From assembly GCA_030429735.1 (NCBI GenBank), contig JAUIET010000003.1, positions 310,001 through 374,000 of the forward strand: a DNA stretch of 64,000 bases, given 5' to 3'. Origin of the DNA: Gammaproteobacteria bacterium. GTDB taxonomy: Bacteria > Pseudomonadota > Gammaproteobacteria > Pseudomonadales > JAUIET01. The translations under genes were made by a program, and so were the position numbers. The notes under the pieces are model-generated. The model was not told the DNA's origin. It saw nothing but the letters and a program-made list of their open reading frames with translations, and searched no databases. This document shows positions 20,665 through 31,474 of this stretch, one piece after another; within the stretch, counting starts at the first letter, position 1; every line of letters starts with the position of its first letter.

Positions 20665-21930
20665 ATGAACAGTTTTTCCGAGGCCGACCACCAGCGATTC
20701 TCACTGATTGCAGAGCAGCTCTACAATGTGAGCAAGCACATCAGAGTATTGAGTCACATAAGTTGGCCGAGCTCCGCGAAAGATCAATTTTTACGTGGCG
20801 GAGCTGCGCAACTGCCAGACGTTAGCTATCCTGACTTTAACAGCCGTGAACCCCTCACCTTACTGCAAGATCTCCGCACGCAACTGGGTGATACACCGGT
20901 AGACAATTGGCTCTCAAAAAAGGCCGACACCCTTGAGCATAGTGTTGCGCTACTAGCGGCCACTGGCAGCGATAACTTTCACAAGTATTCGACTCTATTG
21001 TATGGCACGCCTGCCCTGCCTTTACCAGATGAAAGCAATACCTGCCTGGGTCTTGCTGAGCAATTCAGTGCCAATACAGAGGTATTTTCTCGTCTGGACA
21101 TAGGGACTCCGCCACCGGCTTGCCACCTTGCCAGCAGCGTGGCTGCAGCATTGCAGCAAGCCTGCGGTGACTGCTTCGGAAATGCCGCTCCGGCTGTTCA
21201 GATTGTCGAGGAGCTTTCTGCCAATGCACTGGCCGGCCCAAAACGAATACGCCTGCGCCGCACGGCCTGTTTCACTGACAAGGATGTTGATCAACTGATT
21301 CACCACGAGGCGTTCGTGCACGTTGCAACGTCGTTGAATGGGCTAGCCCAAAATAAGCTTAAGATTCTTGGAGCGGGACATCCCGGCACAACTAAAACAC
21401 AAGAAGGTTTAGCCGTATTCGCTGAAATCATTACTGGCTGCATGGACCTGGATCGAATGCAACGATTGTGCGACCGCGTGGTCGCTATTCAGGCAGCGAT
21501 TGACGGGGCTGACTTTATCGATATTTATCGATTTTTCCTGGAACGCACTGGTAGTGAGGATCAGGCGTTTGAAAACAGCCGTCGGGTGTTTAGAGGTGGA
21601 ACACTTAAAGGTAGCGCACCATTTACCAAAGATATCGTTTATCTGGACGGCTTACTGCGCGTACACAATTTTATGAAGGTTGTCGTTGATGCGGGTAAAA
21701 CCGATTATTTAAAGTTATTGTTTTGCGGAAAACTCGATATTGAAGACCTGCCAATCATTGCTCAGCTAAGCGACGCAGGTTTGTGCAAAGCGCCAATGTA
21801 TTTACCGCCCTGGCTTGCCGACATGCGCTACCTTCTATTCCATCTGAGTTACAGCACGTATTTGAGTGGCGTGAATCTTATCCAAATCAAAGAGCATTAC
21901 CGGGAAATGCTTGCCACTGATCAGGCCTAG
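20665..21930 (+). CDS. QEGLA-motif (DUF1704) zinc metallopeptidase, MATCAP-like
   Basis: Protein of 421 residues annotated in relatives as flavohemoglobin expression-modulating QEGLA motif protein. The zinc site is clear: H214-E215-x-x-x-H219 (HHEAFVH) and the third ligand in T-QEGLA (Q246-A250). The family is related to the eukaryotic MATCAP tyrosine carboxypeptidases that trim the C-terminus of tubulin; in bacteria it tends to lie near ATP-grasp ligases, and a RimK-type ligase is 2.8 kb away here. No signal peptide. No clear ribosome site at the ATG. Stop overlaps the stop of the convergent pseudogene (CTAG). Confidence 0.88.
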   Translation: MNSFSEADHQRFSLIAEQLYNVSKHIRVLSHISWPSSAKDQFLRGGAAQLPDVSYPDFNSREPLTLLQDLRTQLGDTPVDNWLSKKADTLEHSVALLAATGSDNFHKYSTLLYGTPALPLPDESNTCLGLAEQFSANTEVFSRLDIGTPPPACHLASSVAAALQQACGDCFGNAAPAVQIVEELSANALAGPKRIRLRRTACFTDKDVDQLIHHEAFVHVATSLNGLAQNKLKILGAGHPGTTKTQEGLAVFAEIITGCMDLDRMQRLCDRVVAIQAAIDGADFIDIYRFFLERTGSEDQAFENSRRVFRGGTLKGSAPFTKDIVYLDGLLRVHNFMKVVVDAGKTDYLKLLFCGKLDIEDLPIIAQLSDAGLCKAPMYLPPWLADMRYLLFHLSYSTYLSGVNLIQIKEHYREMLATDQA

Positions 21931-22436
21931 TCGTCGTGATAAATTTCGATTAAAGGCTGCTGATTGACTTGAATTAAACCCCTCTTGGGGCGAGTGCCCA
22001 AAACCACCTCAGGCACATGAATTTGCAACAGAGCATTTCTCTTCGCCTGGCTGTCGAACATATCATTAAGCGCCTTTACGAAAACTCCGGTAGTGATTGG
22101 TCTTGGGTCGTCATTGGTTGCGATAATTGCGAGGTCCCAGAGCTCCGCTTGCAGTTTGCGAACTCGCTGGTTGTAGCCTTTTCTCTGCTCACGCTTAGTC
22201 ACGTCTACCACACTCATCTCTATGCGCAGGTCGACATAAGTTTTGAACAATTCCCTGGCTTTAGGTTGATGCTCGGCTGGTAATAAATCAGCGCGCAGAA
22301 TGGCCGTGCCAATCGCATTCGCCTCGTCGATCAGCGCCGCCGTACGACCGTCAAACCGCTGCATTGACATACTAAATGTAAACCCTAGCAACAATGCTAA
22401 CAAACCTAAAATGCTGCCCTGTATTAGGCCGGTTAG
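21927..22436 (-). pseudogene. Remnant of a bestrophin-like (DUF4239-type) membrane protein gene
   Basis: The frame reads GLLALLLGFTFSMSMQRFDGR, EEANAIGTAIL-type, LRADLLP, YVDLRIE and ends LIQVNQQPLIEIY, which is the layout of bestrophin-like domain proteins of about 250 residues. Two pieces are missing. The first helix and start codon are absent, because the family-like sequence begins straight after the stop of the upstream serine hydrolase; only a TTG at 22403 is available. A block of about 60 residues containing the last two helices is also missing between HVPEVV and GTRPKRGLI. Both losses keep the frame. I call it a decayed gene; a shortened functional protein cannot be excluded. Confidence 0.6.
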
Positions 22437-22447
22437 CGATTTATAGC

Positions 22448-23821
22448 TTACTGACCACCGGATGCACGAATCTGCTCTTCCGCACCGTCTTCACGAACCT
22501 TGACGACAGCGCGCGTTCGAACGATTTCCTCAATGGCGGCTCCCAGACGGGCATGGTCCCATGCGGAGTTTTTCCGCAAAACGTTGGACGTTAGGGCGAC
22601 CAGATAACGCTTTTGACCCTCGCTCACTGCGGCCGGCGTCTGTACGATTGCAATCGAGTTCATTGCATTCTCCACATTGCCTTTGTATTTTCCACAAACG
22701 AAATCGATCTCCTCACGGCACTTATATAATGAACCACTCTTGAAGAATACCGCGGCATTTTTCAGTTCTTCAGAAAAAATGTAACGATAACGGCGAGTAG
22801 TTGTATACAGGAATTTCTTCATCTCGAGGCTGGACCAGTGATCAACCAACTTGCCCTGTTCCAGCCGCAATAGATAGCGTGCCAGTTCTCTGGGCGTTGC
22901 TCTGGACCCGCCATTGCCCGGAATTAATTGCTTGGCCGTTCGTGTCCAGAAATTTCCCACCCACAGAATATCCGGGTCCAGCTTAGCAGCCTGCATAGGT
23001 TCGGACACCGCATTTGACGCCAATTGCCAAAGTATTTTCTTGGGCGTTTCACGGAAAAACTGCGCCTCCTGCTCAGGCGATGGCGGGTAGGCCTTGCCAA
23101 AATGGCGTAGCAATACACTTTCTTTCCAAACTGTCGCTGCAGCTGAATTGGCTGATGATGCGATCATGTGATCAAGCCATTCGGCCAGCGTAAATTGTTC
23201 GCCTGGTCGGATTATGGCACTGCGCACAGAATTAGTGTCGCGGTTGTATCGGGGCACCGCATGCTCATCCCAATTTACCCACTCACCCGCAGTGACGACA
23301 TGCTCGCGCAATAAACTTCGTCGATGGTCTATATTCGGAAATGCCTTAGCCAATTCAGAGAAGAATGCCAGCATAGTGGTGATCTTGCCAACACTGCCCG
23401 GCAGCCGGGAGTTATTTTCCCGAACACCCGCCCACGCAAGCTTGTCAGGGTCCGTAATATCAATCACTAGCACACCGTAGGAGCGATCTCGTTGCTTGAA
23501 CACGCTTTCCAGGGCACGCTGCAACTCCGCGTCCTGGTTATTGGTATCTATATCCCAATCAACACCCGGTGACTCCAGCAAATTCAGCCGAATATCGTCG
23601 CTGCCCAGTAGTGCGCCCGGTGGTTGTCGCAAGGCCCCTTTGGCAGCCGTTTGCGGGTCAAAACCTGCCAACCGACTGATGCCCGCATAGCTATTTCCGT
23701 CCAGCGGATAGGCACGCAGATTGGGCGCCGACAAGATGCTCAAGGTCAACAGTACGCCGAGTCCGATAAGCGTTTTGCACAACGCCAATTTGAAAAATTG
23801 GTAAGGAATCATATTGCTCAT
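22448..23821 (-). CDS. Secreted class-A-beta-lactamase-like serine hydrolase
   Basis: Protein of 457 residues with a signal peptide (about 12-37). The penicillin-binding fold motifs are S143-x-x-K146 (PGSVGK), S223-A-N225 (ASSANSA) and K361-S-G363 (FFKSGS). Large family-specific insertions (about 155-215 and 240-290) set it apart from true beta-lactamases. Probably a D,D-peptidase-like or esterase-like enzyme acting in the periplasm. It lies 12 bases after the dikinase-like gene, last intact gene of the block. Its extreme C-terminus abuts the deletion in the next gene and may itself be altered. Confidence 0.82.
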   Translation of the reverse strand: MSNMIPYQFFKLALCKTLIGLGVLLTLSILSAPNLRAYPLDGNSYAGISRLAGFDPQTAAKGALRQPPGALLGSDDIRLNLLESPGVDWDIDTNNQDAELQRALESVFKQRDRSYGVLVIDITDPDKLAWAGVRENNSRLPGSVGKITTMLAFFSELAKAFPNIDHRRSLLREHVVTAGEWVNWDEHAVPRYNRDTNSVRSAIIRPGEQFTLAEWLDHMIASSANSAAATVWKESVLLRHFGKAYPPSPEQEAQFFRETPKKILWQLASNAVSEPMQAAKLDPDILWVGNFWTRTAKQLIPGNGGSRATPRELARYLLRLEQGKLVDHWSSLEMKKFLYTTTRRYRYIFSEELKNAAVFFKSGSLYKCREEIDFVCGKYKGNVENAMNSIAIVQTPAAVSEGQKRYLVALTSNVLRKNSAWDHARLGAAIEEIVRTRAVVKVREDGAEEQIRASGGQ

Positions 23822-23833
23822 GTATCAGACACC

Positions 23834-26782
23834 CTAACGCAGTAAATTATCAGTGAGATTTACGCGACTATCTCCGACGGGTCTGGCAATTATCGCTGAC
23901 ACAGCCTGCTCCGCAGCCACTGCGCCACGCTGCACCAGAGGTCTTATCTGCAGCAACATTAACTTACCCTTGGCAAAGGCGAATTCAATGTCCCATGGCA
24001 AAGCCCGGCCGTCGCTCGCCAGGCTGGGTGGGTATTTGCTAATGACTTCCTGCGCCAATGCTCTGAGTTCCCGCATTTCGGTTACCTCAAGCACACCACC
24101 CTTATTGGCCGCTTTCCAGCCGACGCCGCCTTCCTCGCGCAAATATCGCTGGTACGGTGCTTTAGCTTCCGATAGCAACACATTATTACCATCGGCCTTG
24201 AGCAGATACGACGCTGCACTCTCGTTGTCGACGGCGCCACCGACTCCCCACGACAAGGAAACGGTGTACGCATCTCCAGCATCGCTACTCAAATCGGTGG
24301 TTACCAATACTCCGGATTTATCTGAGGGCACACTTTTCATCAGCAACACCGAGGAATAAACCTCATCCGGATTACTTAGTATGCGTGACCGCCATGCCAT
24401 CGCTCGGCGAGAATACACCGACGACCAGACACGGCTAATGGCAGCCAATTGATTATTCAGGCCAATCACATGCGGCACGGTTTCGTTTAACCCGGCACCG
24501 GTAAATTGCGGAAGATCCTCCATGTTGGTGTCGGACCTTACGAACACCCCATAATGCTCGCCAGCCCCAAATTGAGCATTCATCGCATCAACCAGCGACT
24601 CCCTGAATGCGCTTTGCAGCTGAATCTTGCCTACCTCGTCACGCGCAACGTCCAATTCTATCTGGAATTCCTGCTCGCTAATGTCGCCATGGTTTAAGCG
24701 TGAGAAAGCCCGTTTAACCCTTAAACGCGGTGCCTTATTGCCCGCCTCGGTATGGCGGGCAAAAACACCGAACGGCAAAGCAACTGCTGGCGCAATACGG
24801 TCAGGAAAAAGGCGCGCCAGCTCACCTACATTGGCGGCTTTCGGACCCACAACCCGGCCGGATAAGCCGGCATGCAATTGCGCCAATTGCAGTGGCTGAG
24901 TGGCGCTGAGGTCGGGCACCGGTGCCAACACTTTTTCAGTGGCATTGGGCGATTCTGCCGCAGCAGTAGCTAATTCCGCTGTACTCGCTGTTTGCTCATC
25001 TGTGACTTCCTGCAGCACCACGCGGCCGTCTGCTGAGGCCGCCAGTTGCACTATTTTCCGGTCATGCGCTGTTAGCTCCGATAGCAATGATTCCGCAATA
25101 ACAACGTTTGGAATTCCCAAATTGCGGGCCAGCATTTGGATATGCGACAGCGGATTGCCCTCGCCAACGGTGACAATGCCGGCGGCCGGAAACAGGCTGG
25201 ACGTGGTATTGGGTATCACCACAATATCGTCAGCATTAAATTGATGACCGCTCAACTCTTCGCCGGCAGAGAACACTTTTAGGCGTCCTGTTGCCAGACC
25301 CGGATTAAGACCCCAAACACTGTCTTGCGTTATTCCAAACAGTGATGACGTGGCTCCCGTTAGTTTGCTGCTGTCCAACACCAGCAAATGGGTTAAATTG
25401 GCGAGCGGCATCAAGGAGGAGCCACGCAGTAAATCATCCACAAATTGAGCAGCGCGTGGATCCAGTGCCTGGTAGTACACGAGTGCTTCGGCAAACGCAT
25501 GCTTGACGCTTGCCTGAGCCCAAGCCGGCGCTAGTTGCAGACGACGTATCAATCGACGGTAGTGATCCTGGGTCAAACCATCGTCGCTCTTTAACGCAGC
25601 GGCAATCGGTTCGGACAAGGCTCGATATTCACCTACAGACAACCAGCCGAAATTATGCGTCGCCTGCAGTAACAATTCGATCCGTTCCAATGCCTGCTGA
25701 CGCGTTTGCGGCTCTGGTGCCGTGCGAGCAACGGCTAACAACTCTGCTTCCAGTTCCGTCATCATATTCAGGCGACGCAGGTTCTTGCGTCGATCAGTCG
25801 AATTGCGCATCGACTTGCGCAAGCTATCAACAGCGGCAACCAGGTGCGTGATGCGCTCCACACTGTTAGCACTTTGCGCGGCGCTGTGAATCAGTTGCGC
25901 AATTCTCTGGTCCTGTTCGCCCAGCCCTGTCGCCAGCGCACTAAGTCGCTCAGCACCTCCCTTAAGGCTGTACAGGGCAGTCAGATCGTCTGCCAGACCT
26001 GACGCAATGGCGTGAATTTTATCGCTTGCTGCCGGTCTGTCGGCCAGCCATTTGCGAACTTTATCAGCGGTACTTCTGCGAGGTTGGCCATGAATCTCGG
26101 CCCTTAACGGCTCGAAAGATGCGTCTAACTCGGCTAACAGCTGCGATTGCCTTCTTACGCCACGCGTGGGATCGTCGGTTTCCTGACTGTGCGGGATCAC
26201 CCGCACCAGTTCACGCAACAGTAGAAAATGCTGCTGCTCCCATTGTTGATCTGCCAGCATGCCGAGCAGTAGCTCAGCGCCGGCCTTTTGCTCGTCTTCA
26301 ATTTGCACTCTGCCGCGATACGAATTCGCTTTGCGCAACACCCAGCCATCGTCTATATCGATTAAGTATTGCTCCAACGGCAACTCGCGAATGCGCCAAT
26401 ACGGCCTGGCCGCCAATGCCTGCGCGTTACCGGCTTCATCAAACGCGGCAAAAATCGTACCCACCCGCCAGCCAAGCTCTGCCAATCGCTTGCGTTGGCT
26501 GGAGAAAACAGCATGTTGCTTGCCGCCGCCACGGCTACTGCAGGCGTAAGCCTTCGGTGGCAGAATGGCACCATCATTGCAGAACCAGCTGATGGCCTCG
26601 TAAGGGCCGCGCCGATTATCTTTCATTGCCGCCACAATCTGGCGTGCCTCGTTGACCACCTCTGCTGGCGGTGCTTTCATAATCGGTGCTTGCGCCGCCA
26701 GCTGCTGGGCACCAAATGCCGACAGGACGGTACAGAGTATCGCCAGACTTCTGGTGTTGATAAAACGAATGCTGCACATCAT
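23834..26782 (-). CDS. Secreted dikinase-like protein (phosphohistidine domain then PPDK_N ATP-binding domain)
   Basis: About 982 residues from the ATG pair at 26782/26779, which has AAGG eight bases upstream, lies 17 bases after the previous stop and opens a signal peptide (CSIRFINTRSLAILCTVLS then LAAQA). Frame is open to 26830. A long N-terminal helical region (about 60-460) has no recognised domain. Then comes a PEP-utiliser mobile domain with the phospho-acceptor histidine in GNPLSHIQMLARN (H547), and a PPDK_N ATP-grasp domain (about 630-960) with GPKAANVGELARLF, VRSDTNMEDLPQFTGAG and DIEFAF...LLQIRPL. The histidine-then-ATP order is that of glucan water dikinases; PEP synthase has the reverse. 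No carbohydrate-binding module or PEP-binding TIM barrel is visible. Confidence 0.82.
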   Translation of the reverse strand: MMCSIRFINTRSLAILCTVLSAFGAQQLAAQAPIMKAPPAEVVNEARQIVAAMKDNRRGPYEAISWFCNDGAILPPKAYACSSRGGGKQHAVFSSQRKRLAELGWRVGTIFAAFDEAGNAQALAARPYWRIRELPLEQYLIDIDDGWVLRKANSYRGRVQIEDEQKAGAELLLGMLADQQWEQQHFLLLRELVRVIPHSQETDDPTRGVRRQSQLLAELDASFEPLRAEIHGQPRRSTADKVRKWLADRPAASDKIHAIASGLADDLTALYSLKGGAERLSALATGLGEQDQRIAQLIHSAAQSANSVERITHLVAAVDSLRKSMRNSTDRRKNLRRLNMMTELEAELLAVARTAPEPQTRQQALERIELLLQATHNFGWLSVGEYRALSEPIAAALKSDDGLTQDHYRRLIRRLQLAPAWAQASVKHAFAEALVYYQALDPRAAQFVDDLLRGSSLMPLANLTHLLVLDSSKLTGATSSLFGITQDSVWGLNPGLATGRLKVFSAGEELSGHQFNADDIVVIPNTTSSLFPAAGIVTVGEGNPLSHIQMLARNLGIPNVVIAESLLSELTAHDRKIVQLAASADGRVVLQEVTDEQTASTAELATAAAESPNATEKVLAPVPDLSATQPLQLAQLHAGLSGRVVGPKAANVGELARLFPDRIAPAVALPFGVFARHTEAGNKAPRLRVKRAFSRLNHGDISEQEFQIELDVARDEVGKIQLQSAFRESLVDAMNAQFGAGEHYGVFVRSDTNMEDLPQFTGAGLNETVPHVIGLNNQLAAISRVWSSVYSRRAMAWRSRILSNPDEVYSSVLLMKSVPSDKSGVLVTTDLSSDAGDAYTVSLSWGVGGAVDNESAASYLLKADGNNVLLSEAKAPYQRYLREEGGVGWKAANKGGVLEVTEMRELRALAQEVISKYPPSLASDGRALPWDIEFAFAKGKLMLLQIRPLVQRGAVAAEQAVSAIIARPVGDSRVNLTDNLLR

Positions 26783-26798
26783 CTGGCGGGCCTTGCTG

Positions 26799-27710
26799 CT
26801 ATTCATTCGGACGTGGCAAGACACTTTCAATCGCTGGCACCAGGTCTTTCATAATTTGCCCGCCGTTGGCAGACTCCACCATGCCTACCAAAATGTAGCG
26901 GCGCCAAACCGGGCCCCAGACAATTGCCGAATCGGCGTGCCAGTTCTTCCAGGTACCCGATTTACGATAGATCTTTGCATCCGGCGCCGTTTGCAGTAGC
27001 GCTGCGACAAACTTATGTTTGATGCCAGGATCAACCAGAAAATCAAGCATCTCCCTGGAGCGCTCACGGCTCACCAGGCGCCCGGTTGCCAGCAGGTAAT
27101 AGAAGCGTGCCACCTGGGTAGCACTGGCACCGTGGCTGATACCAAAGATTGGATCGGGCACCCGGCGGCCACTCTTCTGATAACGCTTGCCAACCCACAG
27201 TCCGCCACCAAGCTTTTCGTCATACAGTTTGTAGCGCGGATCTGTTAATACGGCGTTTACTTTGTCCAGGCCGCCGACCCGGTCAATCATCTGTGTAGCA
27301 GCCGTGTTGCTTGACTTTCTAATCATGGCGGCCAGTTCTTTCTTCACTTCCGGTGTCATTGTCAGCTCGCCATCGTCAATACTCTGAAAAGCCGCCAGTA
27401 AAATGGCGATCTTGGGCATGCTGGCGGCGTACATGGTTTGTCGACCGTTAACGCGGGCAAAATGTGGATTATTCGGATCTGAAAGATCAACCAGGGCAAC
27501 GGCCATTTTCTTTTGTTTGATCAAACGCTTCCACTCAGGGTTTTTATTCAGTTGCAGATCCAGTGCGGTCTGTAAGGGTTTATAAACGTGTTCGTACAGC
27601 GGTAGCCAGGAATTTCCTTCCAGCAGAATTGGCAGTGGTGGCGCCTCATCAGCTGCCAGTGGGGGCACGCAGGTAACAATGGCGAGCAAAATGGCAGTAA
27701 AGTATTTCAT
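26799..27710 (-). CDS. Secreted class-A-beta-lactamase-like serine hydrolase (second copy)
   Basis: Protein of 303 residues with signal peptide (1-20, ending LAADE). Catalytic motifs are S97-M-P-K100, S133-S-N135 and K250-S-G252 (YRKSGTW). At about 280 mature residues it has normal class A length but lacks the usual glutamate of the omega loop as far as I can see, so peptidase or esterase activity is more likely than beta-lactam hydrolysis. It is a shorter paralogue of the 22448-23821 protein and lies between the nucleotide-transporter-like gene and the dikinase-like gene. Confidence 0.85.
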   Translation of the reverse strand: MKYFTAILLAIVTCVPPLAADEAPPLPILLEGNSWLPLYEHVYKPLQTALDLQLNKNPEWKRLIKQKKMAVALVDLSDPNNPHFARVNGRQTMYAASMPKIAILLAAFQSIDDGELTMTPEVKKELAAMIRKSSNTAATQMIDRVGGLDKVNAVLTDPRYKLYDEKLGGGLWVGKRYQKSGRRVPDPIFGISHGASATQVARFYYLLATGRLVSRERSREMLDFLVDPGIKHKFVAALLQTAPDAKIYRKSGTWKNWHADSAIVWGPVWRRYILVGMVESANGGQIMKDLVPAIESVLPRPNE

Positions 27711-27766
27711 GATCCAATCTCGTTAGTGGTGACAGAAAGAAGCTAGCTCGCTTTGCGCAAGCCCCA

Positions 27767-29197
27767 TCAAGCTTGAATGGCAGCCGTGCTTGGCTCCAGC
27801 TTGTCGGCTTCCCATTTTCTTCTCTCCTTCAAGATCAGAACGGCAACGATAAGCCACATAAGTATTATGACGATATTGAGCAGGAAAAATTCCATTGTTG
27901 TAGCACCTAAAAATCGTGTGCCAATAATCACTGTGACCGCGGCCAGTCCATCGGCAAAGCGTACACACATCGTGTCGATAGCCGCTTTTGCCTTATACAA
28001 GGCTTCTCGCGCAACCGGCAGCCACAATATATGTCTGGCGGTATTGGTTACCGAGTAATTCGTCGCGTTCTCAGCAGTTTTAGCGACTGTCAGCAGGCCA
28101 ACACCGCCACCGCCGGCAGTCATGGCACCATAACCGGCGAGTGATACGAAAGGTGGAATGAGCAGCACACCTGCAATGCCGCCGTAGAAGAGCAGGCGTG
28201 ACACTACGAAAGCCTGAAGCAACATGCCAATCAAATTAACCCAGAAATATATTTTGCTGTAAAAAGTCGCCGTTTCATCCTGCTGTATCCGACTTGCCTC
28301 CTCCGCTGACATGTTGGCAAAGTCGTAACTGTTGGCGATCGATTCTTGCACTGCCGCAAATAAAATGTTCTCGCCATTGGTGGTAACCCAATTCAGCAGA
28401 AACACGAAAGTCGCAATAAGCAGCAGATATCGACTACTCATTATAATTCGGAACGCATTCCTTGGATCTTCGTCAGGCTCATCATCCGCAGCGAGATGCT
28501 CATGACCCTGCTGTGTTTCGCGACGATCAACTACGTAAATCAACCAGCTCGCTATCAATAGCGGAACGGGGGCCAAAAGCAACATGCTGTAGCTGCCGAG
28601 GGCCAGGTCTTTGACCAGATAATTGGTTAGCCAACTGCCAATTACCGCACCGGACGAGGCGCCCAAAGCGATCAATGGAAACAGCCGTTTTCCGTCCGAT
28701 TCGTCATACAGGTCTGCCGCAAACGCCCAGAATTGGGCCACAACGGACACTGCGAAAATGCCTATCCAGACGTAAAACACCACACCGGCGAAAGGAATCT
28801 GCTCAGCGAGAAACCCTGGGCGCAGCAGCCAAAAAACCGGGAATAGCAAAATGAAAAAGAAATTCACGCCGATCAATAGCTTGCCCCGCGGCACCCTGTC
28901 ATAGAGATGCGCATAAACAGGAATTAGCGCCATCAGCACTATGGATTGCAGAAAACCCGAGTAGGCTTTTATTTCGATTTTCGATAAGTCAGCAATCACT
29001 GAAACCGCCAGCCAGCTCTCGCGCACGGGCTTGGCGAGATAATAGGCGGTTAACATCAAAAACACTGTCGTAAATAGTGTGATCGTAAGCCGAATTTCAC
29101 CGGGATAGATCTTGGTGAAGAACGACAGGAATTTCACTCCCGCGGTTTGGATGAACCGCGGGTTGGCATTGTTGTTATCCGTCATGGATTGACACAT
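27767..29197 (-). CDS. ATP/ADP-translocase-like (Npt1/Npt2, Tlc family) transporter
   Basis: Membrane protein of 476 residues with about 12 helices. It resembles the nucleotide exchange carriers of intracellular bacteria and plastids: LTAYYLAKPVRESWL in helix 1, LYDRVPRGKLL in the first loop, FWAFAADLYDESDGKRLFPLIALGASSGAVIGSWL in helices 4-5 and NYSVTNTARHILWLPV in helix 10 (segments named separately). An acidic loop (about 240-258) divides the halves. Substrate cannot be proven; free-living bacteria carry related proteins of unknown role. ATG at 29197, with an alternative at 29185. It is the first gene of the four-gene block and is separated from the OmpA gene upstream by a terminator. Confidence 0.8.
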   Translation of the reverse strand: MCQSMTDNNNANPRFIQTAGVKFLSFFTKIYPGEIRLTITLFTTVFLMLTAYYLAKPVRESWLAVSVIADLSKIEIKAYSGFLQSIVLMALIPVYAHLYDRVPRGKLLIGVNFFFILLFPVFWLLRPGFLAEQIPFAGVVFYVWIGIFAVSVVAQFWAFAADLYDESDGKRLFPLIALGASSGAVIGSWLTNYLVKDLALGSYSMLLLAPVPLLIASWLIYVVDRRETQQGHEHLAADDEPDEDPRNAFRIIMSSRYLLLIATFVFLLNWVTTNGENILFAAVQESIANSYDFANMSAEEASRIQQDETATFYSKIYFWVNLIGMLLQAFVVSRLLFYGGIAGVLLIPPFVSLAGYGAMTAGGGGVGLLTVAKTAENATNYSVTNTARHILWLPVAREALYKAKAAIDTMCVRFADGLAAVTVIIGTRFLGATTMEFFLLNIVIILMWLIVAVLILKERRKWEADKLEPSTAAIQA

Positions 29198-29316: not shown

Positions 29317-30747
29317 TTACAGAATCGGCTTGATCAAAAGATCAATGCGACGGTTCCGCTTGCGACCTTCAGCGGTTTCGTTATTAGCTACCGGTCTTGA
29401 TTCACCAAAACCTACCGCTGTAATTTTCTGATTTTGCAGATCATTCATGTTGGCTTGCAGGTAAGTCAAGACGGCGTCTGCGCGCTTTTGCGACAATACG
29501 AGATTGCTGGCATCTCCACCAAAAGAGTCGGTATGTCCTTCAATAGTCACTTCCGAATTCGGAAAGATGCGCATTGCATCGATCACTTTGCGCAAAGTCA
29601 CGAAATATTGTGACGAAATAACCGATTTTCCGGAATCAAAATTCAGACCAACCATACGGATCACCACGTTGTTTCCCTGACGATACACTGAGGCCTCTTC
29701 ACTGTCGAACATGGCTTCCGTTTGCACGAATTTGCGCCGAATCTCCTCTTGCTGCTTCATTCGATTCGATTGAGTACCCAGCTTTTGTTCCAATAGGCGT
29801 AACTCACTTTCTAACGCCATGATCTCATCTCGACGCTCGCTGAGTTCAAACGAGTCTTTGCGCAAACGCTCGATGCTTGCTACCAGTTCTTTTGTAGGCT
29901 TGTCCAGGCCGCTGTCGAATTCGACCACCATATCAAGTGCACTGCCCACACGCTCCAGGGGTTTTTCCGCAGAAAGTGCAAAGTCTTCCAGGCTGAGTTC
30001 TTTATCCTTAACGCCTTGCAACACTTCGTTCAGATAAAGCGCATGCTTTGCCTGGTACTTCGCCTGCCGAGCAAGAGAGCGAGCTTCGTCCGTGTCGTAG
30101 CGATTAGAGTTAAGCTTCTTCTCTGCATCCGCCAACAAGGAGCGCGCCTGCTCCAAAGTTTTTGGCGCCAGTTTTTTAACTTTCTGCTTATCGGCCAGCT
30201 CAATGAGACGACGCGCCTCAGCAAGATAATTATTCTTGATCGCTGCCAGTTCTGCCGCGCGGTATTTTCCATTGGCATCAGCGCCTTTGCGTTTGGCCGA
30301 GTTTATGTTCCCGCCTTCAAGCCTTCGCGCAGCCTCAGCAAACAATTCTTCCGCTTCCTGCCATTCTTCAGCCGCGTACTTTTCCGCTTCAGCCGATTCG
30401 GCATCATTTCTCGCTTGAATTTCCGAGGCCAGGCTTACTTCAGCAACACGCGTTGCCGCGACGGCCGCGCGCAAGTGCTTCACTGCTTTTTCAAGGTCAG
30501 AATTTATCCCTTCCAAACTTTTTTTGCGCGACAGCTTGTCTTCCGCAGATTTGTAGTACGCAGTCGCTTTTGAATAATTATCTGGCGCGAGTATGTGCGC
30601 GCGGGCTTCATTTGCTGCCTTCACTGCATTGTCGGCCGCGGCAAATAAATTGCCACGAATATCTTCAGCGCTGGCTGTTCCTGCAAGCAAAAAAATCAGT
30701 AGCACAAGGCCGGAAAAACTGAAAATGCGGGTAATCATGTTGCGCAT
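29317..30747 (-). CDS. OmpA-family protein with long helical N-terminal region (DUF4398-like)
   Basis: 476 residues from the ATG at 30747, which has AGGA seven bases upstream and opens a signal peptide (ITRIFSFSGLVLLIFLL then TASAED). Residues 30-290 are alanine- and glutamate-rich helices with repeated EARRLIELADKQK / AARRLEGG / QARSLLADAEKK segments (DUF4398-type), likely a periplasmic coiled rod. The C-terminal OmpA domain (about 360-476) binds peptidoglycan: GLNFDSGKSVI, VTIEGHTDSFGG, LSQKRADAVLTYL and GFGESRPVANN. No beta-barrel is visible. A LysM lipoprotein gene follows upstream on the same strand, so both may tether the envelope. Confidence 0.88.
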   Translation of the reverse strand: MRNMITRIFSFSGLVLLIFLLAGTASAEDIRGNLFAAADNAVKAANEARAHILAPDNYSKATAYYKSAEDKLSRKKSLEGINSDLEKAVKHLRAAVAATRVAEVSLASEIQARNDAESAEAEKYAAEEWQEAEELFAEAARRLEGGNINSAKRKGADANGKYRAAELAAIKNNYLAEARRLIELADKQKVKKLAPKTLEQARSLLADAEKKLNSNRYDTDEARSLARQAKYQAKHALYLNEVLQGVKDKELSLEDFALSAEKPLERVGSALDMVVEFDSGLDKPTKELVASIERLRKDSFELSERRDEIMALESELRLLEQKLGTQSNRMKQQEEIRRKFVQTEAMFDSEEASVYRQGNNVVIRMVGLNFDSGKSVISSQYFVTLRKVIDAMRIFPNSEVTIEGHTDSFGGDASNLVLSQKRADAVLTYLQANMNDLQNQKITAVGFGESRPVANNETAEGRKRNRRIDLLIKPIL

Positions 30748-30833
30748 AGCGATATCCTGTGTAGGTTTTCTCTGCTGCATAGACGTGGGGGCAGAGGTAA
30801 GAGTCACATTCTTTTTTAGCAACCGTGTGCCAG

Positions 30834-31370
30834 CTAACGGTTAATCTCCAACACTTCGCCAACAAAGATTTCATTGGCATCGTTAATTTCATTGTCGGCA
30901 ATTAATTTGGCAAGTGAAATCTGATATTGTTTTGCGATTTTGTACAAAGTGTCGCCTTGCTGAACTTCATGCTCTATGCGTTTTGAAGCTAATTTCCCAG
31001 CCTTTGCTGAACTGCTGACTGCCTTCGAATCAGCGGTGCGCGGTTGTTGCGTCCCGAAAACGGGTGCTTGGTCAAAGTCGTCGGCGTCAGTATCCAGTTC
31101 ATCGAAGAACTCACCGTCGTAAGGCTGTGCTATTTCTTCTCCGCCTTCACCTGCTTCTTCAACGCTCGTTCGCCGTTCACGCAACTGCTCATGCTGGGTG
31201 TATTGATCTGCTAGCGATTCGTTTTTTTCGCTATTCCTGCTTGCAACTCCCGGGGAATCAGGCGAGCTAATCCGTTTCGTGTCGGGAGCTTCTGCATCAG
31301 AACAAGCGCCCAGCAGCAACAGAGGTAGCGCGAGCACGACCGCAAAACCTGAATGAGCGTGCATATTCAT
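30834..31370 (-). CDS. LysM-domain lipoprotein
   Basis: 178 residues from the ATG at 31370, preceded by GGTGA. A lipoprotein signal ends in LLLGAC (lipobox cysteine near residue 22). A long acidic linker (about 30-125, rich in E, D, S) leads to one C-terminal LysM domain (about 130-178: HEVQQGDTLYKIAKQYQISLAKLIADN, EIFVGEVLEI, segments of the standard LysM fold) that binds peptidoglycan. It ends 87 bases before the OmpA-family start on the same strand, so they may share a transcript. Confidence 0.85.
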   Translation of the reverse strand: MNMHAHSGFAVVLALPLLLLGACSDAEAPDTKRISSPDSPGVASRNSEKNESLADQYTQHEQLRERRTSVEEAGEGGEEIAQPYDGEFFDELDTDADDFDQAPVFGTQQPRTADSKAVSSSAKAGKLASKRIEHEVQQGDTLYKIAKQYQISLAKLIADNEINDANEIFVGEVLEINR

Positions 31371-31474
31371 AAGATCACCAGTTATTCGGTTTACGACTCC
31401 TGATAGACGAAGCGATCTCTTCAAAAGTCACACAAATTCTGGAGATCAGTTCCGGAGCATATGTACCTGTACGT

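Follow-up and report, generated by a model that had tools for sequence, protein, structure and literature searches.

How could a kinase that works outside the inner membrane be supplied with ATP, and what do nucleotide carriers do in bacteria that live freely? Both questions are raised by four adjoining genes in a 64,000-nucleotide stretch of DNA (hereafter the window) from a gammaproteobacterial assembly (contig JAUIET010000003.1, positions 310,001 to 374,000), which encode an NTT/Tlc-type carrier (NTT), a predicted short exported serine hydrolase (SHS), a predicted exported dikinase (DIK) and a predicted long exported serine hydrolase (SHL). The periplasm is usually regarded as a compartment free of ATP. 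Here we report that the NTT-SHS-DIK-SHL block is a module that recurs across genomes beyond chance, and we present it as a candidate system for phosphorylation in the periplasm.

All four open reading frames (ORFs) lie on the minus strand, in the 5' to 3' order NTT, SHS, DIK, SHL, and an earlier note on this DNA, made from its letters, was right to place four co-directional neighbouring genes here. The carrier gene occupies 27767..29197 (476 residues), SHS 26799..27710 (303 residues), DIK 23834..26806 (990 residues from an ATG at 26806; 998 from a TTG at 26830) and SHL 22448..23821 (457 residues). NTT and SHS are separated by 56 bases, SHS and DIK overlap by 8 bases (or are spaced by 16-19 bases if DIK begins at inner Met/start codons), and 12 bases lie between DIK and SHL. 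Pfam matches TLC (PF03219) in the carrier (E 4.3e-8; 32.9 bits against a cut-off of 21), PEP-utilizers (E 9.3e-7) together with PPDK_N (E 6.4e-29) in DIK, and Beta-lactamase2 in both SHS (E 1e-22) and SHL (E 4.8e-8). With the signal-like N-termini described below, these matches bear out the names that the note had given: a carrier, a dikinase with an ATP-grasp domain, signal peptides and the serine-hydrolase type.

A profile of DIK, scanned against public genome contigs, gave 306 relatives, and the best 80 were retained; SHL was found near 72 of these, SHS near 56 and NTT near 48, many of the contigs being short. Where the contig ran for at least 9 kb to either side (34 loci), SHL was present in 33, SHS in 31, NTT in 26 and all three in 25, which is the conserved synteny that the earlier note had named as its test. 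The loci counted for linkage had also served to iterate the family profiles, and the whole-genome counts given below are more independent of them, if not wholly so. Gene order and direction within the module differ between loci. The closest named relative of DIK among the best 80 of 306 is that of Pseudomaricurvus alcaniphilus (64% identity); in its 22.9 kb locus, ORFs of at least 110 residues that match the 64 kb window fall solely in the four genes, and the surroundings of the module therefore differ between the two. Loci with the module carry the database labels Pseudomonadota, Thermodesulfobacteriota, Acidobacteriota, Gemmatimonadota and Myxococcota, all of which we take to be two-membraned groups. 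DIK and SHL occur together in the cultured marine isolates Pseudomaricurvus alcaniphilus, Aestuariicella albida, Agaribacterium haliotis, Halioglobus pacificus and two Parahaliea, the first three of which also have NTT at the DIK locus. Pairwise distances between DIKs are correlated with those between SHLs (r 0.91) and SHSs (r 0.76), and in one genome (G266) a divergent DIK and a divergent SHS-like gene are arranged back to back, a hint that the partnership is old. A plasmid origin was rejected, 72,556 plasmid records having zero SHL matches and none holding 80% of DIK; an origin in defence systems or phages was likewise set aside, none of the four proteins having a PADLOC or PHROGs match at E <= 0.01. 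One metagenome-assembled genome labelled Klebsiella pneumoniae (locus L056) has the module and clusters with other gammaproteobacterial metagenome-assembled genomes; its label looks doubtful.

Whole genomes were counted in a sample of 274 from the class and in a second of 299 from the phylum, with a search that scores few first-look candidates per genome (3 for DIK) and may miss divergent copies. Within the class sample DIK was found in 26 genomes, SHL in 28, SHS in 25 and NTT in 67. The 26 genomes with DIK held SHL in every case (26/26), NTT in every case (26/26) and SHS in 24/26 (none found in G102 and G246), a co-occurrence of the families that the note had expected; the 248 genomes without DIK held SHL in 2, SHS in 1 and NTT in 41. 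Fisher tests against DIK, which ignore relatedness, gave p values of 1.5e-18 for NTT, 2e-34 for SHL and 4e-31 for SHS. When NTTs were restricted to those scoring at least 400 bits against the module profile, itself built from module NTTs, they were found in 23/26 genomes with DIK and in 2/248 without. The last two genomes, G131 and G297, are also the two that have SHL and lack DIK, and both hold pieces of the module: G131, 81% complete, has an N-terminal fragment of DIK at a contig edge, and G297 has short remnants of DIK, SHL and SHS together, next to an intact NTT, which may reflect an assembly collapse. Among the 26 class DIKs themselves, three are disrupted: that of G102 has an internal stop, and G224 and G356 hold fragments. 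NTT lies within 10 kb of DIK in 20 of the 26 genomes, and of the genomes without NTT at the DIK locus, 10 of 11 checked have one elsewhere; a twelfth, that of L060, proved to have NTT beside DIK and is left out of this count. Within the phylum sample DIK was found in 24 genomes, including that of the window, and the other 23 held SHL in 22, NTT in 21 and SHS in 21; 19 of these 23 belong to one genus (g335), and they are not 23 independent cases. A second SHS copy lies near the module in three loci of this genus (L123, L124, L126). Genome G290 and the genome behind locus L112, with NTT at the same place, are probably one genome.

The N-termini of DIK, SHS and SHL resemble export signals. By a home-made hydrophobicity test (not SignalP), with internal slices of the proteins as controls, signal-like N-termini were scored in the final run in 70/75 DIKs against 25/225 controls, in 18/19 SHLs against 4/57 and in 56/57 SHSs against 3/171. 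This run left out 6 of 81 DIK rows and 52 of 71 SHL rows, in which the motif was missing or too little sequence preceded it; an earlier run had scored 61/79 DIKs against 2/243 internal slices and 51/71 SHLs against 2/213. The signal predicted for the dikinase in the earlier note is upheld by these counts, as far as such a test can tell. In the DIK of the window, the export-signal-like N-terminus covers approximately residues 1-45 (26672..26806, minus strand) with the hydrophobic stretch SLAILCTVLSAFGAQQLAA. A Cys pair is conserved in 98% of DIKs and another in 71/71 SHLs (C368/C376 in the window), fitting what would be expected of proteins in an oxidising compartment.

Downstream of this N-terminus, DIK appears to consist of three parts, all on the minus strand: a mostly helical N-terminal domain (residues 50-485; 25352..26659) with the motif WFCNDG..LPPKAYAC...GGG.QH, a phospho-histidine swivel domain of the PEP-utilizers type (residues 488-606; 24989..25345) with the catalytic H555 at 25142-25144, and an ATP-grasp domain (residues 636-958; 23933..24901) with K656, R757, E941, Q953 and R955. 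PPDK_N and PEP-utilizers are both present in 38/38 DIK relatives. The family alignments omit partial proteins below a score cut, and hold 81 of 83 sources for DIK (two partial DIKs stand outside), 71 rows for SHL, 57 for SHS and 50 for NTT. The catalytic His, K and R are invariant in 81/81 aligned DIKs, and E, Q and R in the 79/79 rows that are filled there (2 rows gapped). When aligned with HMMER, the catalytic K, R, E, Q, R and H have equivalents in solved phosphoenolpyruvate (PEP) synthases, the two domains standing in swapped order. In an AlphaFold2 model of DIK (predicted local distance difference test score, pLDDT, 83.9; predicted template modelling score 0.81), the nearest solved ATP-grasp is that of rifampin phosphotransferase (RPH; 5hv1; VIA-align Z 34.0, 2.2 A over 309 residues), and PEP synthase also aligns (Z 31.2). 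By homology, DIK is a member of the dikinase superfamily (PPS/PPDK/RPH/GWD).

Within this superfamily, RPH and PEP synthase/PPDK resemble DIK: all have an ATP-grasp and a phospho-His swivel domain, and their catalytic residues align. The chemistry to be expected is that described for RPH, in which ATP is converted to AMP, phosphate and a phospho-acceptor; in RPH, Lys22 and Arg117 are required for resistance and Glu297 is not (PMC4844700). DIK differs from RPH and PEP synthase in its predicted export and in the His domain preceding the ATP-grasp, and its N-terminal domain replaces the rifampin-binding part of the one and the PEP-binding part of the other. It can be classed neither as a PEP synthase/PPDK, PEP-utilizers_C being found in 0/38 members at E <= 0.01 and the domain order being reversed, nor as a rifampin phosphotransferase, for which the order differs and model NF041857 gives 65 bits against a cut-off of 999. 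The glucan, water dikinases GWD and PWD are plastid enzymes with carbohydrate-binding modules, and in them the ATP-grasp domain comes last, the same order as in DIK. Set beside GWD by description, DIK differs in that no carbohydrate-binding module was found in 38 members at E <= 0.01. Both plastid enzymes are described as phospho-His dikinases that phosphorylate glycan (PMC12892837, PMC7569903). When the N-terminal domain was compared with Pfam at E <= 0.1, any family that matched did so in at most 1 of 29 members; the best match of its profile among PDB sequences had E 0.09, and within the 274 genomes the domain is confined to DIKs or DIK fragments. It appears to lack a recognised relative by sequence, and the list from a fold search was filled by the catalytic domains.

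As to the two hydrolases, Beta-lactamase2 is matched by 27/27 SHS relatives and 28/28 SHL relatives, and the SxxK, SxN and KSG motifs (S97xxK100, S133xN135 and K250SG in SHS; S143xxK146, S223xN225 and K361SG in SHL) are conserved at all seven residues in 57/57 SHSs and at 70-71 of 71 rows in SHL. A model of SHL (pLDDT 83.8) aligned with PBP-A (2j7v; Z 25.6, 2.7 A over 263) and, tied with it, with the class A enzyme TLA-3 (Z 26.0). SHL thus modelled shares the PBP-A/class A fold, and both hydrolases share the SxxK, SxN and K(S/T)G motifs, features for which the earlier note's term class-A-like holds. Where the term fails is at the deacylating Glu166 of class A beta-lactamases, an equivalent of which appears not to be conserved in either protein, and SHL has a Cys pair of its own. 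In SHS, no Glu column above 0.51 was seen between SxN and KSG in 57 rows; in SHL, the sole invariant Glu, E321, lies 96 residues past SxN and, judged by eye, outside the expected loop. The lack of a conserved Glu166 equivalent makes drug hydrolysis less likely for SHS and SHL than a function resembling that of a peptidase or an esterase.

The carrier belongs, as judged by homology, to the NTT/Tlc family (PF03219). It matches TIGR00769 at E 7e-10, under the cut-off of that model, and 22/28 of its relatives match Pfam TLC at E <= 0.01; when 28 carriers are combined into a profile, it matches the solved ADP/ATP carriers 9j3n (E 9.6e-33, positions 8-442 of 451) and 9j3j (E 6.9e-27, positions 28-446 of 451) over nearly their full extent. 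Its similarity to the NTTs of parasites and plastids is distant (Pfam E 4.3e-8, as above), and it differs from them in being tied to a predicted exported dikinase. Positions from mutagenesis of plastid NTT1 were tried as a guide to nucleotide contacts and dropped, since their numbering did not fit the aligned chain. The genome of the window has further NTT-family genes at contig C2 629689-630936 and contig C7 16775-18358.

Several kinds of carrier occupy this position. The 50 aligned NTT rows fall into type A (23, including that of the window), type B (19), long forms (7) and one outside these. Long NTT-family proteins are found near the module in L060, L064, L065, L089, L093, L095, L038 and L121 (genome G305). 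Of the four scanned against Pfam, L064 has HEAT_2 and TLC over cut-off and L060 both just under it, L121 has TLC and no HEAT match, and L065 has a cNMP-binding domain and no TLC match at E <= 0.01. In G305 the sole NTT found is a 738-residue long form directly adjoining SHS. Mapped on a FastTree phylogeny of DIK with some weak forks (47 rows; L038 and L065, with two kinds each, entered as A), carrier type (A, B or long NTT-HEAT-like) switches a minimum of 7 times, and well-supported branches alone force 4 changes for A, 3 for B and 3 for the long form. NTT activity, not one gene, therefore seems to be kept, and one activity supplied by different NTTs would be the best argument from sequence that nucleotide transport matters to the module.

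We propose that the four genes encode a periplasmic phosphorylation module, with ATP supply by NTT, kinase activity by DIK and processing by SHS and SHL, and regard this as an evenly balanced proposition. Its observed ground is the gene content, linkage, conserved active sites, export-like N-termini and NTT family membership computed here. NTT would sit in the inner membrane, passing cytoplasmic ATP outwards and taking spent adenine nucleotide in from the periplasm, and DIK would be exported via a Sec-type signal. Its C-terminal ATP-grasp domain would bind ATP, H555 would become autophosphorylated with release of AMP and phosphate, and the swivel domain would then pass its phosphate on to the acceptor that the helical N-terminal domain holds. 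This acceptor is likely to be an envelope glycan or peptidoglycan, and SHS and SHL, with a PBP-A/class-A fold and a peptidase-like character, may cut or trim the same material. What we infer is that ATP moves outwards, that AMP returns, which material accepts the phosphate and what the hydrolases do. The earlier note's interpretation, which had ATP supplied for phosphorylation of glycan, lipid or peptidoglycan, is supported in part: two of the three outcomes that it named as refuting, a failed signal prediction for the dikinase and families that do not co-occur, were looked for and did not arise, and outward ATP and that choice of acceptors keep the standing of conjecture. The wider claim, that NTT exports ATP for an exported phospho-histidine dikinase in free-living two-membraned bacteria, and that some of the hitherto puzzling NTT and NTT-HEAT genes of such bacteria are accounted for in this way, we rate at slightly under an even chance.

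One genome behaves as the proposed module predicts. In the complete genome G591, the DIK homologue (L125, 7057-9969) has 5 of 6 active-site residues replaced (His, K, R, E and the last R), and NTT, SHL and SHS were not found; the joint loss of active site and partners is what the model predicts, in a single case. The homologue retains the signal-like N-terminus and the cysteines of the N-terminal domain, and is possibly a pseudo-enzyme in which the function of that domain outlives the kinase.

Other results weigh against the proposal, most of them concerning the carrier. NTT distances track those of DIK loosely (r 0.46), and 2 of the 26 class DIK genomes have weak NTT matches only (a 138-residue fragment in G102; 76 bits in G325). 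NTTs occur in 41 of the 248 genomes without DIK, and therefore have other jobs too. In genus g335, NTT is found in the 19 kb around DIK in 2 of 5 loci and is absent there in 3 of 5, and several genomes of the genus have a sole NTT of another kind, elsewhere in the genome. The genome of L057 has DIK and SHL with no NTT at E <= 1e-8, and G433 (97% complete) has intact DIK and SHL with neither NTT nor SHS found; these two genomes speak against the carrier being strictly required. With respect to cargo, some NTTs transport NAD or other nucleotides (PMC5381601), and ATP is therefore not assured. Neighbouring genes give no pointer to the acceptor of DIK, as far as ORF clustering within 9 kb can detect.

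Three other explanations were considered. The first, which we consider unlikely, is a salvage module, in which NTT imports a nucleotide or nucleotide-like product from the periplasm, DIK acts on a small molecule or in reverse, from AMP to nucleotide, and the hydrolases free the substrate. It would agree with the characterised NTTs, which import nucleotides into parasites or plastids, some of them taking NAD (PMC5381601). The direction of transport is not readable from sequence. In free-living cells, cytoplasmic ATP is high and periplasmic ATP low, a gradient that favours export by an exchanger and speaks against salvage, as does the need of DIK for an ATP-grasp ligand outside the membrane, its active site being invariant in the 81 aligned copies.

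Secondly, the carrier could be a mere neighbour, DIK using ATP from lysis or leaks and the true unit being the three exported enzymes. The linkage of NTT, the loosest of the module (26/34 loci and the low distance correlation), is what this would lead one to expect, together with the NTT-less genomes G433 and L057 and the g335 loci with no NTT near DIK; against it stand the presence of NTT in all 26 genomes with DIK versus 41/248 without, the replacement of the carrier by other NTT subfamilies, and G305, whose only detected NTT is the long form directly beside SHS. On balance we find this decidedly improbable. Finally, a detoxification cassette, in which DIK would be an exported protein related to rifampin phosphotransferase and the hydrolases would act on drugs, with an MFS-type carrier completing a set that inactivates antibiotics, would accord with RPH as the nearest solved ATP-grasp, with the class A fold of SHL and class A motifs of both hydrolases, and with a patchy distribution (DIK in 26/274 genomes), and is nevertheless very improbable given the C-terminal position of the His domain in RPH (PMC4844700), unlike that in DIK, the class A Glu that is not conserved in SHS or SHL, the match of the carrier profile to ADP/ATP carriers, and the plasmid records, devoid of SHL and of any substantially complete DIK.

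Returning to the proposed phosphorylation module, no fifth member was seen in more than a few loci when all ORFs within 9 kb were clustered all against all. The top clusters of neighbouring ORFs look, from their positions, like antisense shadows of the known members (not every one was checked). Within the window, genes for an OmpA/DUF4398 and a LysM protein (29317-31424, minus strand) lie immediately upstream of the carrier with gaps of 119 and 11 bases, and possibly share a transcript with it; they were rejected as module members, OmpA-like genes being present in 3 of 83 sources and LysM in the window only. Just downstream of SHL is a bestrophin-like ORF (21927-22403, minus strand, 158 residues), whose match starts at profile position 41 and which is apparently without its N-terminal part, followed by a gene on the plus strand (20665-21930) for a bacterial MATCAP/QEGLA-motif protein (PF08014, E 1.5e-114), whose family takes its name from a microtubule tyrosine carboxypeptidase.

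In the secretory pathway of eukaryotes, an ATP exchanger feeds ATP into a topologically external compartment, the endoplasmic reticulum and Golgi, where kinases use it for phosphorylation. The module would work in a like manner, the analogy being one of function, since the proteins are unrelated. No paper describing this gene set was found in the open PMC literature, seen in part and with subscription journals outside its coverage, and the system as a whole would resemble no described kind known to us, on condition that the transport and kinase activities hold. Major et al. 2017 described NTT-HEAT proteins without assigning them a role and left undecided what NTTs do in free-living bacteria (PMC5381601), and the long forms found near the module would be a first context for this uncharacterised NTT-HEAT-like family. 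The pairing of an NTT with an exported ATP-using enzyme offers one testable answer both to the question of periplasmic ATP and to that of what NTTs do in free-living cells. If the proposal is true, the periplasm of these cells is not ATP-free and a phosphorylated envelope polymer is yet to be discovered; the module would predict that the bacterial envelope is modified with phosphate and that the N-terminal domain of DIK is a new substrate-binding domain.

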